Source: Lachnospiraceae bacterium (GTDB taxonomy: Bacteria; Bacillota; Clostridia; Lachnospirales; Lachnospiraceae). From it: a DNA stretch of 64,000 nucleotides. The notes below the pieces were generated by a model that was not told where the DNA came from, did not search any database, and worked only from the letters and a program-made list of their open reading frames with translations. The stretch covers positions 145,969 through 209,968 of the forward strand of contig JAAUZE010000003.1 in assembly GCA_014804755.1 (NCBI GenBank), in the 5' to 3' direction. Both the position numbers and the translations under genes were made by a program. Positions 48,363-52,770 of this stretch are shown piece after piece (the first letter of the stretch is position 1; each line of letters begins with the position of its first letter).

Positions 48363-49853
48363 ATGAAAAAAGGACAGGTTATAGAGGGAATCGTTACAAT
48401 GGTGAATTTTCCCAATAAAGGTATTGTGGAAGCAGAGGGAGAACGGGTGGAAGTGAAGGGCGTGCTGCCGGGGCAGAAGGTTTCCGTCGCCGTGCAGAAG
48501 GTCCGGCACGGAAAGGCGGAGGGACGCTGCCTTTCCGTGTTAGCGCGTGCACCCTATGAAATAGAGGCACAGTGTCCGCATGCGGGGGAATGCGGCGGAT
48601 GCAGCTATCAGACCATGCCCTATGAGGAACAGCTCAAGCTGAAGGAACAGCAGGTGCTTGCGCTCATGCAGCCGGTTTTTGAAAGGCAGGGGGAGAATTT
48701 ATATGAGGGAATCAAGAAGAGCCCCCGGCAGTTTGGATACCGCAACAAGATGGAATTTACGTTCGGTGACGAATATAAGGACGGGCCGCTGACGCTCGGC
48801 ATGCATAAAAAAGGAAGCTTTTATGATATTGTTCCGGTGACGGAATGCTGCATTGTCGATGAGGATTATCGGAAAATCCTGCGCGCGGTCATGGAGTTTG
48901 CGCGGGAAAAGGGATTGCCCTTTTATCACAGACTGCGTCATGAGGGGTATCTGCGCCATCTGCTTGTGCGGAAGGCTGTGCGCACAGGGGAGCTGCTGAT
49001 CGCAATTGTGACGACAACGCAGGAAGAGCACACAATGGAGCTGAAATCGCTTTGTGAGCGGCTACTGGCATTGTCGATTGAGGGGAAAATAGCAGGAATT
49101 GTACATACCAGTAATGATTCTCTGGCCGATGTGGTGCAGAGCGATGCGACGGAAGTACTCTACGGACAGGATTATTTTTATGAAGAACTGCTGGGACTGC
49201 GCTTTCGCATTTCCGAGTTTTCTTTTTTTCAGACAAACAGCCTCGGCGCGGAGGTGCTCTATGAGACCGCACGGGAATACATCGGGGAGATTCATACGAA
49301 AAGCGGTCGAAAGCCTGTCATTTATGACCTCTATTCGGGTACGGGAACGATCGCGCAGATGATGGCGCCGGTGGCGGAGCGGGTGATCGGTGTGGAGATC
49401 GTGGAGGAAGCGGTTCACGCCGCGCGGGAAAACGCGGCATTGAATGGTTTACATAACTGTGAATTCATTGTGGGCGACGTGCTGAAGGCGCTCGACGAGA
49501 TCGAGCAACAGCCGGATTTTATCATCCTTGATCCGCCGCGTGACGGAATTCATCCGAAGGCATTGAAAAAGATCATCGCTTACGGCGTGGAACGGTTGGT
49601 CTACATTTCCTGCAAGCCGACAAGCCTTGCAAGGGATTTGGAGGTATTTCTGGATATGGGATACCGCGTGGAGCGCATGTGCTGCGTCGATATGTTTCCG
49701 GGCACGGTGCATGTGGAGACGGTTGCGCTGCTTTCCCACAAAGCGCCGGACAGTACAGTCGATATCACGGTGGAATTTGGAGAAGGAGAAGGGAAAGTTC
49801 CGTCAGGTAATATCGATAAGAGGGCGGAGCTTATAAGTCGAGGGAAAGAGTAA
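48363..49853 (+). CDS. rlmD: 23S rRNA (uracil-5-)-methyltransferase, RlmD/RumA family
   Basis: A 496-aa S-adenosylmethionine-dependent enzyme that makes 5-methyluridine in 23S rRNA. The N-terminal TRAM domain reads GQVIEGIVTMVNFPNKGIVE. An iron-sulfur Cys cluster (CPHAGECGGC) and the MTase core follow (YDLYSGTGTIAQMMAPVAER; DPPRDGIHPKALKKI; YISCKPTSLARDL with the catalytic Cys; then PGTVHVETVALLS). The start is ATG 48363; a longer in-frame reading would overlap the gene before it. After VEFGEGEG the last about 20 residues (KVPSGNIDKRAELI) look like the start of a C-terminal extension that has been cut by a frameshift. Confidence 0.92.
   Translation: MKKGQVIEGIVTMVNFPNKGIVEAEGERVEVKGVLPGQKVSVAVQKVRHGKAEGRCLSVLARAPYEIEAQCPHAGECGGCSYQTMPYEEQLKLKEQQVLALMQPVFERQGENLYEGIKKSPRQFGYRNKMEFTFGDEYKDGPLTLGMHKKGSFYDIVPVTECCIVDEDYRKILRAVMEFAREKGLPFYHRLRHEGYLRHLLVRKAVRTGELLIAIVTTTQEEHTMELKSLCERLLALSIEGKIAGIVHTSNDSLADVVQSDATEVLYGQDYFYEELLGLRFRISEFSFFQTNSLGAEVLYETAREYIGEIHTKSGRKPVIYDLYSGTGTIAQMMAPVAERVIGVEIVEEAVHAARENAALNGLHNCEFIVGDVLKALDEIEQQPDFIILDPPRDGIHPKALKKIIAYGVERLVYISCKPTSLARDLEVFLDMGYRVERMCCVDMFPGTVHVETVALLSHKAPDSTVDITVEFGEGEGKVPSGNIDKRAELISRGKE
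49739..49790 (+). repeat. Direct repeat, copy 1 (inside the rlmD 3' end)
   Basis: A 52-bp stretch beginning CAAAGCGCCGGACAGTACAG and ending GGAGAAGGAGAA is repeated exactly at 52081-52132. Less similar sequence that still codes V-E-T-V-x-L-L-S lies just before both copies. Confidence 0.85.
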
Positions 49854-50120
49854 CCTATCAGAGAATATGGTAGAGGAATTAAAACAGTCGAGGAAGCATC
49901 TGAAAGATATTATTAGATTTTGTCTGTAATGAAAAAATATTGAGATTATATAAAAAGTGGCAGAAAGTATTTATATGCATATCCGAATTGTATCAAGTTT
50001 TATATTGAAGCGTATCGGGAGAAGTGGGAAGATGAAAAATGATTGCTCGGAGGGATTTTTCAGAACAGAGTAGAAGTTAAGGCATTTGAGAACGATTGTT
50101 ATTATGATGCAGGAGGAAGA
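49791..50120. other. Relic of an RlmD C-terminal extension and AT-rich gap
   Basis: After the rlmD stop the sequence still reads V-T-Y-Q-R-I-W one frame over (49851-49871). It then reads VEELKQSRKHLKDIIRFCL (49871-49930). Both match, from memory, the start and end of a long C-terminal extension seen in some clostridial RlmD proteins. The stretch from 49930 to 50120 is AT-rich with only the GGAGG of the next gene. Confidence 0.5.
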
Positions 50121-50975
50121 ATGGGGAAAATAATCAAGGACATAATTCATGCAAATGGAATAGATATTGGAATTTATACGCAGGATTTTGAAAATGAATT
50201 TATTTCATTGACAGATATAGCCCGATATAAAAGCGATGACCCAACAGCGGTCATACAAAATTGGATGAGAAATCGAGATGTGATAGAATTTTTGGGATTA
50301 TGGGAAAAACTTCATAATCCAGATTTTAACCCCCTCGAATTCGAGGGGTTTAGAAAACAGGCAGGGGCAAATGCATTTACAATGTCACCAAAGAAATGGA
50401 TAGAAGCTACTGGAGCAATAGGGATTGTTTCAAAAGCAGGACGTTATGGTGGAACATATGCTCATAGTGATATTGCGATGTCCTTTGCAACTTGGATTTC
50501 TCCAGAATTCCAGTTATATATTATGAAAGATTATAGGAGATTAAAGACGGATGAGAATAGTCGGTTATCTTTGAATTGGAATTTGAATAGAGAAATTTCC
50601 AAGTTAAATTACAGGATACATACAGATGCAATTAAGGAAAATCTTATGCCACCAGAATTAACATCTGTACAGATCGCTTATACATATGCTAACGAAGCAG
50701 ATATGTTAAATGTTGTTTTATTTGGAAAAACAGCAAAGCAATGGAAAGATGAAAATCCCACGGTTAAAGAAAATATGAGAGATGGGGCGACATTAAGCCA
50801 ATTGTTAGTACTTGCAAATTTGGAAAGTTATAATGCTGTACTGATAAAGCAAGGCAAAAATCAGAAAGAGCGCATGGAACTGCTTCGGCAGTTGGCGGTA
50901 CAGCAGTTGCAGACATTGGATATGGTAAGTTTGAATAGTTTATCCAAATTAGGAGTTAACCAAAAGAAGAATTAG
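50121..50975 (+). CDS. KilA-N domain protein
   Basis: The start at 50121 (MGKIIKDIIHANGID) follows GGAGGAAG; an in-frame TTG at 50043 lacks a site. The 284-aa product has a KilA-N DNA-binding domain (FISLTDIARYKSDDPTAVIQ, NWMRNRDVIEFLGLWE, MSPKKWIEATGAIGIVSKAG, FATWISPEFQLYIMKDYRRL) and a helical C-terminal part. KilA-N proteins come from phages and mobile islands and are often transcription regulators or antirepressors. The gene is AT-rich and lies between two copies of the rlmD 3' end. It contains a perfect palindrome at 50331-50348. Confidence 0.85.
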   Translation: MGKIIKDIIHANGIDIGIYTQDFENEFISLTDIARYKSDDPTAVIQNWMRNRDVIEFLGLWEKLHNPDFNPLEFEGFRKQAGANAFTMSPKKWIEATGAIGIVSKAGRYGGTYAHSDIAMSFATWISPEFQLYIMKDYRRLKTDENSRLSLNWNLNREISKLNYRIHTDAIKENLMPPELTSVQIAYTYANEADMLNVVLFGKTAKQWKDENPTVKENMRDGATLSQLLVLANLESYNAVLIKQGKNQKERMELLRQLAVQQLQTLDMVSLNSLSKLGVNQKKN

Positions 50976-51034
50976 GTGGTATGAAAATGCCTTATATTAA
51001 ACGAAGAAAGTAGAAGTAATGAAAGGAAAATTCC

Positions 51035-51988
51035 ATGGGAAATGATGCATTTGTACATATTGCAAAAAAGAAGTATTCAAAAAAAATGATAGAAACTTTA
51101 TTGCAAATGATGGATTATAAAAAATATGGAGAGGTGTTTTATTGTGGAAATGATGCGGAATATAAATATTATTCAGGAATTAGAGTGTGGCAATGTGATG
51201 AAGACGAGAGCGAAGTAGTGTATTGGATACGAACCCAAGCATTTGCTAGCGGCTATGATATTAAAAAGCAAAATGATACTATCAGATATTTAAAAAAGTA
51301 TTGTCAAGCTAATTTTGAGAGTGATATTGGGAAAAATAGATATTTTGAAATAGGTAGATTGATTAAAGGAGCAGAAAGCGGATGTTATTTTGCTATCCAG
51401 AATTTGGATAATCATTTTACACTATTAAGTCATTCATTGAGTAAGTATCCTGATGATTTTGAGGCTGAAAAAAATATGGTTGAATTTGGATTGCCAACTC
51501 CAAGTAGCTTTAATGCAAATGTTTATTTATCGTATTTATGCTCTTTGATAGAGGAGTTTTTTAGAGCGACATATATTGCTTTGCTTAAGTATTCTGATAA
51601 AAAAGCAAAGATATTAAATATGAAATTTTCTCCATATGACATGGTGGATATTAGCGAAGGAACGAAAACTGTTGAAGAAGTATATGCAAGAACACTATCG
51701 TTTCAGAATATAGAAAAAGTTACTTCAAATTTTAAGGCACTAAATAGTAAATTAGATATAAGTAAACCGCTTAAAGAGCCTTACCATAGGAGAAGAGAAA
51801 ATTTGTATGAGCAAATTGATAAAATTCTTGAGCGTAGGCATGGAATGATTCATAGGATGGAAATTGATATAAATTATTCAACTCAAGAGTTAGAAAAAGA
51901 TATAGAAGATGTTAAAGTTGCACTAAAGAGGGTGTATTTATATGTTTGTGAACAGTATAATTGGGAGCCGGAAAAAGTTATTATTTAA
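51035..51988 (+). CDS. HEPN-like protein of unknown function
   Basis: A 317-aa AT-rich gene with AAGGAAA before the ATG. The N-terminal half (MGNDAFVHIAKKKYSKKMIE) is of mixed composition with Cys and aromatic residues. The C-terminal half is helical and has CSLIEEFFRATYIALLKYSD and ERRHGMIHRMEID. The latter contains R-x4-H, the catalytic motif of HEPN ribonucleases. No named family is recognised. Next to a KilA-N gene and inside a repeat-bounded module, a phage-defence or toxin role is the likeliest reading. Confidence 0.6.
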   Translation: MGNDAFVHIAKKKYSKKMIETLLQMMDYKKYGEVFYCGNDAEYKYYSGIRVWQCDEDESEVVYWIRTQAFASGYDIKKQNDTIRYLKKYCQANFESDIGKNRYFEIGRLIKGAESGCYFAIQNLDNHFTLLSHSLSKYPDDFEAEKNMVEFGLPTPSSFNANVYLSYLCSLIEEFFRATYIALLKYSDKKAKILNMKFSPYDMVDISEGTKTVEEVYARTLSFQNIEKVTSNFKALNSKLDISKPLKEPYHRRRENLYEQIDKILERRHGMIHRMEIDINYSTQELEKDIEDVKVALKRVYLYVCEQYNWEPEKVII

Positions 51989-52080
51989 GATTTAAAGGGA
52001 AATTCTTACGCAGGCAAGATTGATTAGGAAACGTTTTTGGGAAAAAGGCAATACGTGGAGACGGTGTGCTTACTTTCCCG

Positions 52081-52132
52081 CAAAGCGCCGGACAGTACAG
52101 TCGATATCACGGTGGAATTTGGAGAAGGAGAA
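52081..52132 (+). repeat. Direct repeat, copy 2 (orphan rlmD 3' end)
   Basis: Identical to 49739-49790. Just upstream, 52055-52080 reads as V-E-T-V-C-L-L-S-R, the usual RlmD tail. The copy runs into a TAA stop right after it. The rest of that rlmD gene is absent. Confidence 0.85.
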
Positions 52133-52138
52133 TAACTT

Positions 52139-52324
52139 ATGGATCCAATGGACTTGATAAGGGACAAGTTTTCACAGGACTGTACGATTGAAACAGTCCT
52201 GCATCTGCTCATGGCGCATTTTCATCTGGCTGAGGAAGAAGCACGGGCTAAGATCAATGAGTACTTTGAACTCGTGGATATGATCGATGAGGAACGCAAG
52301 AAAGCGGAAAGGGAAGGCAAATGA
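52139..52324 (+). CDS. Small protein paired with a YunG-like gene
   Basis: A 61-aa acidic/helical protein (MDPMDLIRDKFSQDCTIETV, ending EERKKAEREGK). GGAGAAGGAG from the repeat provides its ribosome site. Its stop overlaps the next ATG (ATGA), so the pair is co-translated. Function not recognised. Confidence 0.65.
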   Translation: MDPMDLIRDKFSQDCTIETVLHLLMAHFHLAEEEARAKINEYFELVDMIDEERKKAEREGK

Positions 52325-52770
52325 AGGAATACAGATTTTATGGCTGGGAAACAGCCGATATAAAGGATGCAAACGGCCTGACACCGAGGGATTATTACGA
52401 TATCTTGTCCAACATCTGGTGTGCTGACACCTGCGCACCGCGGATGAGGAACGAGTGGAGCGTCCATAATCCTACGCTTGGACAGTGTTCGATCACAGCG
52501 TTCCTGATGCAGGACTTCTTCGGCGGCAAGGTTTACGGTATTTTGAGACCCGGCGGAAATTACCACTGTTTCAATGTGGTAGATGGCTGTGTGTTTGACC
52601 TGACCAGTGAGCAGTTCGGAGATGAAGTGCTGGATTACAGCAGCTGTCCGGAACAGTTCAGGGAGACACACTTTGCCAAGGAGGAAAAGCGGCTGCGGTA
52701 TGAATATCTGCGGAAACAGCTTCTGAGCAAGCCGCCGTTTTATTCAATCTCGCACAGTGGAGCAGTTTAA
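52321..52770 (+). CDS. YunG-like protein
   Basis: A 149-aa protein resembling Bacillus YunG: EWSVHNPTLGQCSITAFLMQ, DFFGGKVYGILRPGGNYH and VVDGCVFDLTSEQFGDEV. The Cys in GQC and the His in NYH could form a papain-like or transglutaminase-like active pair, but this is inference. It is translationally coupled to the 61-aa gene. No known role. Confidence 0.65.
   Translation: MKEYRFYGWETADIKDANGLTPRDYYDILSNIWCADTCAPRMRNEWSVHNPTLGQCSITAFLMQDFFGGKVYGILRPGGNYHCFNVVDGCVFDLTSEQFGDEVLDYSSCPEQFRETHFAKEEKRLRYEYLRKQLLSKPPFYSISHSGAV

Follow-up and report, generated by a model that had tools for sequence, protein, structure and literature searches.

Why does the 3′ end of rlmD, which encodes a 23S rRNA uracil-C5 methyltransferase, occur twice around an AT-rich block in which no integrase gene is found? 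The locus lies in a 64,000-nt stretch of contig JAAUZE010000003.1 from a Lachnospiraceae bacterium; "the window" refers to this whole stretch, and its assembly is 98% complete and 3.9 Mb in size. As set out below, the 2.3-kb integrase-less block interrupts the 3′ end of rlmD at the V-E-T-V codons, and the enzyme that put it there was likely a large serine integrase acting from outside the block.

The original prediction described an exact 52-bp repeat at 49739-49790 and 52081-52132. This repeat is present and forms the end of a longer one of 78 bp (49713-49790 and 52055-52132; 91% identity), in which all 7 mismatches fall within the first 26 bp. The two translations given for it, V-E-T-V-A-L-L-S-H for copy 1 and V-E-T-V-C-L-L-S-R for copy 2, are both correct, and a chance repeat was dismissed in view of the 52 exact bp. 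The cargo had also been called AT-rich, in good agreement with a GC fraction of 0.332 in the island against 0.528 in rlmD (0.440 downstream). As predicted, the island encodes no integrase: between the two attachment cores only a KilA-N gene and a HEPN gene are seen, along with remnants.

Exchange of the rlmD end

We compared the locus with four further genomes of the genus (G299, G300, G301 and G302). In G302 the same position in rlmD is occupied by an element of 13.9 kb core to core (L158:1638-15506), compared with 2.3 kb in the window. Its V-E-T codons are followed by tail C, then by cargo with type I restriction genes (PADLOC) and a large serine integrase with Resolvase, Recombinase and Zn_ribbon_recom domains (Pfam). 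The integrase frame crosses the core and ends with VETVCLLSRKAPDSTVDITVEFGEGE, the peptide of copy 2 in the window, after which the same downstream genes follow. The right copy is thus shared by the two genomes and the content of the site differs in size, not the pair of copies without size variation that the original prediction had named as speaking against an insertion.

The junctions were located by computing the identity between the window and G302 in 20-bp bins. At the left junction the identity is at least 0.85 per bin up to the core and then drops to 0.65 and 0.35; at the right junction no bin ahead of the core exceeds 0.50, and every bin beyond it reaches at least 0.90. On both sides the identity ends at the codons GTG-GAG-ACG (V-E-T). 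From these identities and from the integrase frame of G302 we conclude that copy 2 represents the original end of the gene in a displaced position, and copy 1 an island-borne tail. As the same-site element of G302 encodes a large serine integrase, we assign the enzyme responsible to this class. A serine integrase from a related element would exchange the gene ends, such that the island tail replaces the end of rlmD and the old end is displaced to the right.

The predicted entry of cargo at the 3′ end of rlmD therefore holds, in that the entry is site-specific and the old gene end now lies on the far side. The long repeat is not the attachment core, however; the shared core is about 11 bp (GTGGAGACGGT). 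The similarity beyond it is explained by the displaced chromosomal end and the incoming tail belonging to one tail family, which is present also on a paralogue in the same genome and in G300. Neither is the gene end restored as at tRNA genes: the incoming end instead swaps the rlmD end for another C-terminal tail. A tRNA-type island was rejected as well, as no tRNA gene was found in the window and the same-site element of G302 carries a serine integrase.

Within the window the two copies are identical at 52/52 positions, and the G302 counterpart of copy 2 differs at 3/52. This hints at gene conversion after the insertion. It would also suit a local origin, in which the rlmD end was duplicated within the genome and the cargo arrived by ordinary recombination. 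We regard such an origin as highly improbable, since the breakpoints coincide with the codons used in the integrase element of G302 and in many other rlmD genes, and the right end of the block is an integrase half-site (see below). A tandem duplication of the whole gene was dismissed because a second rlmD body is absent ahead of copy 2, and an assembly chimera because both flanks are collinear with G300 and G302.

An empty-site allele is predicted to join rlmD directly to VCLLSRKAPDSTVDITVEFGEGE. G300, a Lachnospiraceae metagenome-assembled genome (L009) that is the closest public relative at the locus (97%), was rejected as a clean empty site: its rlmD ends VETVCLLSK, and 2.5 kb of other content separates this end from the right flank seen in the window. 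In G301 rlmD bears tail B and the contig stops 49 bp past the gene; in G299 a search for the rlmD orthologue returned paralogues only.

The G302 element also carries a complete-looking type I restriction system, a gene for a 1213-aa Upx-like protein and a PDC-S02 gene. In G300 a 644-aa gene, the N-terminal part of which appears ferredoxin-like by eye, sits where the cassette would be (L009:9378-11941).

The right end of the block

The block of the window has both attachment halves. The left attachment site (attL) consists of rlmD, core and tail A, and the right one (attR) of the last ∼22 bp of an integrase gene, the core and the old rlmD end. Intact serine integrases from two other genera (G025 and G047) end LLWEKGNT and continue with VETVVLMSRKDK or VETVCLLSRK. 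When 12 integrase-less right ends were compared with the integrase gene, the identity was 0.83 over the 22 bp at the core, 0.32 over the next 18 bp and 0.26 further out; most of these ends were retrieved by a motif inside the 22 bp, so that the drop beyond 22 bp is the unbiased part of the comparison. Removal of two ends that share flanks with others gave 0.81, 0.32 and 0.26.

Relatives of the rlmD-type integrase (E 1e-100 or better) were found in 47 of 299 genomes of the family. Out of 53 listed places, 30 loci were read, and at 20 of them the integrase enters the strict core in frame. Seven more have near variants such as IETV, NETV, VETVVG or VETGRLL, in one (L243) a stop within the matched stretch precedes the core, and the remaining two are without a core.

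A second class of right arm, GGGGATATGTTTTAATTTGGTACACAT beside the core with small variations, closes other integrase-less rlmD islands (L011:13067, L012:13690, L021:11808, L122:16489 and, 528 bp before the KilA-N gene, L195); no integrase matching this class was identified. Serine integrases fused in frame to a tail A of the rlmD type are seen at L245, L254, L115:14188-16152 (with a frame break late in the tail) and L123:7489-9576. Such fusions are expected if a second element enters the right core of a first one, or from a circular form.

Recurring cassettes and their cargo

To place the block among its relatives we surveyed rlmD loci in public genomes (the best 80 of 469, with less than 400 bp of downstream sequence at 15 loci). 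One of three tail families follows the V-E-T codons at 23 of these 80 loci, with full tail A in L118, L057, L065 and others. A Pfam scan of the three families gave nothing over the cut-off, and the structure model of the tail is helical with a mean predicted local distance difference test score (pLDDT) of 63.6, too weak for a fold search.

KilA-N relatives occur in 64 of the 299 family genomes, and 40 of the 81 listed places were examined. rlmD, a tail or a 91-aa open reading frame (ORF) lies at most 1.5 kb upstream of the gene in 14/15 places where KilA-N identity is at least 79%, in 2/10 at 67-78% and in 0/15 below 60%. The half-site lies at most 2.5 kb downstream in 9/15, 0/10 and 0/15 of the same classes. 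A minimal arrangement is that of L118, where rlmD with full tail A is followed by the 91-aa ORF, KilA-N and the half-site, and the two cores are 1.6 kb apart. The 91-aa ORF is intact at its place between tail A and KilA-N in L118 (10566-10841), L013 and L121; it has no Pfam or NCBIfam match over the cut-off, and its role is perhaps tied to the cassette ends.

The slot between KilA-N and the half-site holds the HEPN gene in the window, AbiN-like genes in L195 and L115, a DUF3644-like gene in L199 and a PDC-S14-like gene with DUF4357 in L121. In L196 and L202 the gene in this slot is without a PADLOC match, L120 has a 338-aa ORF starting like the L196 protein, and the slot is empty in L118 and L122. 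The block thus appears to belong to a family of non-autonomous cassettes made up of tail A, the 91-aa ORF, KilA-N, one exchangeable gene or none, and the 22-bp half-site. Among the cargo of other such islands, 14 of 20 chosen proteins had a PADLOC match.

At the eight loci where both genes stand at rlmD, the similarity of KilA-N exceeds that of rlmD in 28/28 pairs (means 82.6% and 62.0%), and it also exceeds that of the neighbouring pcrA in each of the 10 comparable pairs (80.5% vs 64.8%). For such comparisons L016 and L121 are one locus, the KilA-N gene of L201 sits on the paralogue, and that of L013 is cut. As KilA-N is more alike than either host gene, we infer that the cassettes have been transferred between hosts. 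They may be moved in trans by the integrases of related elements, or in cis after tandem accretion. Tandem arrays, in which the right core of one element is followed by the tail of the next, are seen in L115, L119, L122, L123 and L195. It is conceivable, if still somewhat doubtful, that the V-E-T-V codons of rlmD and its paralogue form a cassette-array site in Lachnospiraceae, to which the integrases of visiting elements add small integrase-less defence cassettes in tandem.

The block could instead have begun as a full serine-integrase element, that is, an integrative and conjugative or integrative and mobilizable element (ICE or IME), which entered rlmD and lost its integrase and transfer genes in place without ever being a mobile unit in its own right. 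The window copy does show decay, L031 retains integrase residues 422-546 ahead of its right core, and the second island of the genome under study, described below, retains an integrase C-terminus. Such deletion in place is nonetheless unlikely in our view. The order of tail, 91-aa ORF, KilA-N and half-site is found again in several genera, where the single cargo gene differs, the integrase sequence ends ∼22 bp from the core in the 12 right ends compared, and KilA-N was not detected in the 20-kb stretches read of the WEKGNT integrase elements L117 (whose left end is outside the stretch) and L119.

Apart from the way in which the right ends were retrieved, several observations weigh against insertion of the block as a cassette by an outside integrase. 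The clean single-copy empty site for which the original prediction proposed a comparison with related genomes was not found at the rlmD locus in the genus genomes compared. When the RlmD end expected of an empty site was used as a protein query, no such natural allele appeared among the 120 matches listed of 7970, in a collection that is clustered at 90% identity and could hide one. In the genome under study no intact integrase of the right family was found: the second island keeps a C-terminal remnant, and all other matches to the rlmD-type integrase are 27-34% identical. Relative to the L119 integrase gene, the attR of the window has lost one base at the core and carries two substitutions, and the core is absent at two of the 30 integrase loci read (L255 and L256). 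In L200 neither rlmD nor a tail lies beside a KilA-N gene of 87% identity. As for the defence cargo, 3 of 10 ordinary neighbour genes matched PADLOC too, the HEPN gene of the window is without a PADLOC match, and Foldseek alone gave no match for its protein at E 0.001 or better.

Both cargo genes had been named in the original prediction. For KilA-N this is borne out by Pfam, and the HEPN gene with its R-x4-H motif is supported by a PF18735 match of E 1e-4, under the curated cut-off, by R268 and H273, which are invariant across 33 aligned sequences, and by a moderate fold match of residues 115-305 to HEPN toxins (7ae2, 7ae6, 7ae8, 7ae9 and 8xeh). The protein resembles the HEPN toxins of HEPN-MNT pairs in this motif and, going by the moderate match, probably in fold, but it has ∼108 additional N-terminal ferredoxin-like residues, and an MNT partner is absent from the block. 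The HEPN gene was found in 1 of the 299 family genomes, namely its own. The evidence for PDC-S22, the candidate family of the KilA-N gene, is co-occurrence only in the available part of the literature. We predict that both genes act in anti-phage defence, the HEPN protein presumably as an RNase effector.

State of the window copy and comparison with known systems

The features of the locus are listed in Table 1.

Table 1. Features of the rlmD locus, with positions in the window.
Feature	Position	Strand	Evidence
rlmD, 23S rRNA uracil-C5 methyltransferase, whole gene	48363-49853	+	TIGR00479, 308.1 bits (cut-off 183.55)
rlmD body up to the attachment core, left chromosomal arm	48363..49712	+	amino acid identity 96% to G302, 97% to G300
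Left core GTGGAGACGGT (attL), codons V-E-T-V	49713..49723	+	common to the right copy; G302 identity stops here; same codons bear tails in other rlmD genes
Replacement rlmD end: tail A residues 1-39, then a short out-of-family end and stop	49713..49853	+	tblastn match to tail A
Out-of-frame tail A remnant NMVEELKQSRKH	49864..49896	+	three-frame translation compared with L118 tail A
Remnant of the 91-aa ORF, residues 65-89	49962..50036	+	tblastn E 1e-8, 80% identity
KilA-N gene (candidate defence family PDC-S22 in PADLOC)	50121..50975	+	PF04383 E 6.6e-19; PDC-S22 E 4.9e-131, 433.9 bits
HEPN gene, variable cargo slot, predicted RNase-type effector	51035..51988	+	PF18735, R-x4-H
Right half-site, 3′ terminus of a serine integrase gene (reads FWEKGNT in the integrase frame)	52033..52054	+	against L119 integrase gene: one 1-nt deletion at the core, two substitutions
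Right core GTGGAGACGGT (attR)	52055..52065	+	shared with the left copy
Original end of rlmD in its displaced position, VETVCLLSRKAPDSTVDITVEFGEGE plus stop; right chromosomal arm	52055..52135	+	same peptide terminates the G302 integrase frame; at least 0.90 identity to G302 per 20 bp from the core
Right chromosomal flank: 61-aa ORF and YunG gene	52139..52770	+	collinear in G302 and G300; YunG PF24585 E 2.1e-34

Related arrangements are known. The available parts of PMC4701971 and PMC5357655 describe streptococcal ICEs and IMEs in rumA with a single serine integrase; there, rumA and the integrase gene each contain a copy of the repeat, and the two genes trade their 3′ portions, which alters the C-terminus. 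For CTn5 in rumA of C. difficile a hybrid RumA is described (PMC4320837). As far as these passages go, the window has the same target gene and the same 3′ insertion with exchange of the gene end, and the G302 element fits the pattern. The difference lies in the 2.3-kb block of the window, with KilA-N and one cargo gene: it has no serine integrase gene, which G302 has, and transfer or mobilisation genes are absent from its ORFs.

A cis-mobilizable element (CIME), as defined in the accessible part of PMC5704250, resembles the block in being without integration or transfer genes, and relatives of the block stand in tandem with integrase elements. Both attL and attR are present in the window, attR with the changes given in Table 1. 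In contrast to a CIME formed by a one-off deletion, the cassettes have a recurring fixed architecture and a sharp 22-bp right half-site that look like a unit of their own, and their site is one of serine integrases.

The staphylococcal cassette chromosome (SCC) and the enterococcal cassette chromosome, in the portion of PMC6222049 available, use large serine recombinases, insert in the 3′ region of the methyltransferase gene rlmH and carry variable cargo. On that description the shared features are serine recombinases, the 3′ region of a methyltransferase gene as the target, and a variable cargo, which in G302 likewise includes type I restriction genes. Here, however, the target is rlmD and not rlmH, the block of the window has no recombinase (ccr) gene, and the related integrases score best in NCBIfam with CcrB, reaching 244.5 and 220.4 bits where the cut-off is 900.

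The rumA/rlmD attachment site, the exchange of gene ends, integrase-less islands flanked by attachment sites (PMC5704250) and the rlmH cassettes (PMC6222049) are thus already known from the parts of these sources at hand. For a recurring integrase-less defence cassette at rlmD in Lachnospiraceae no description was found among the open-licence papers listed. The locus joins three topics that are usually separate: the serine-integrase site in rumA/rlmD, integrase-less islands between attachment sites, and single-gene defence candidates. Should the cassettes move in trans, these bacteria would possess a chromosomal location for the exchange of immunity genes, comparable to rlmH with its SCC cassettes, and new defence genes could be sought simply by the motif of the right half-site. 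Swapped element ends could also explain the variable RlmD C-termini in these genomes, and if cassettes are indeed arrayed at the V-E-T-V codons, the site would serve immunity genes as a chromosomal loading dock, at which each insertion swaps the C-terminus of an rRNA methyltransferase.

The window copy itself is partly decayed. Tail A is in frame for 39 residues and then continues out of frame, the 91-aa ORF is broken and attR is one base short at the core; the KilA-N and HEPN frames are open. The Recombinase domain occurs at four places in the genome. Since none of these represents a close relative of the rlmD-type integrase except the C-terminal remnant in the second island, the copy is probably fixed now, and we take the island to be a defence cassette that is resident and probably no longer mobile.

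When the repeat was searched for throughout the assembly, a third copy (91%) was found on another contig, at the end of a second RlmD-like gene and followed by foreign-looking genes. The second island (L089:8497-17224, contig C27) is 7.3 kb long and AT-rich, and lies behind an RlmD-like paralogue with the same kind of tail. It contains AbiH-like and PDC-S21-like genes (PADLOC), the decayed C-terminus of an integrase, remains of a KilA-N gene and a right half-site. A paralogue, rlmD2, with tail C and foreign genes is also present in G299 (L162:1654-5991, including a KilA-N gene) and in G301 (L164).

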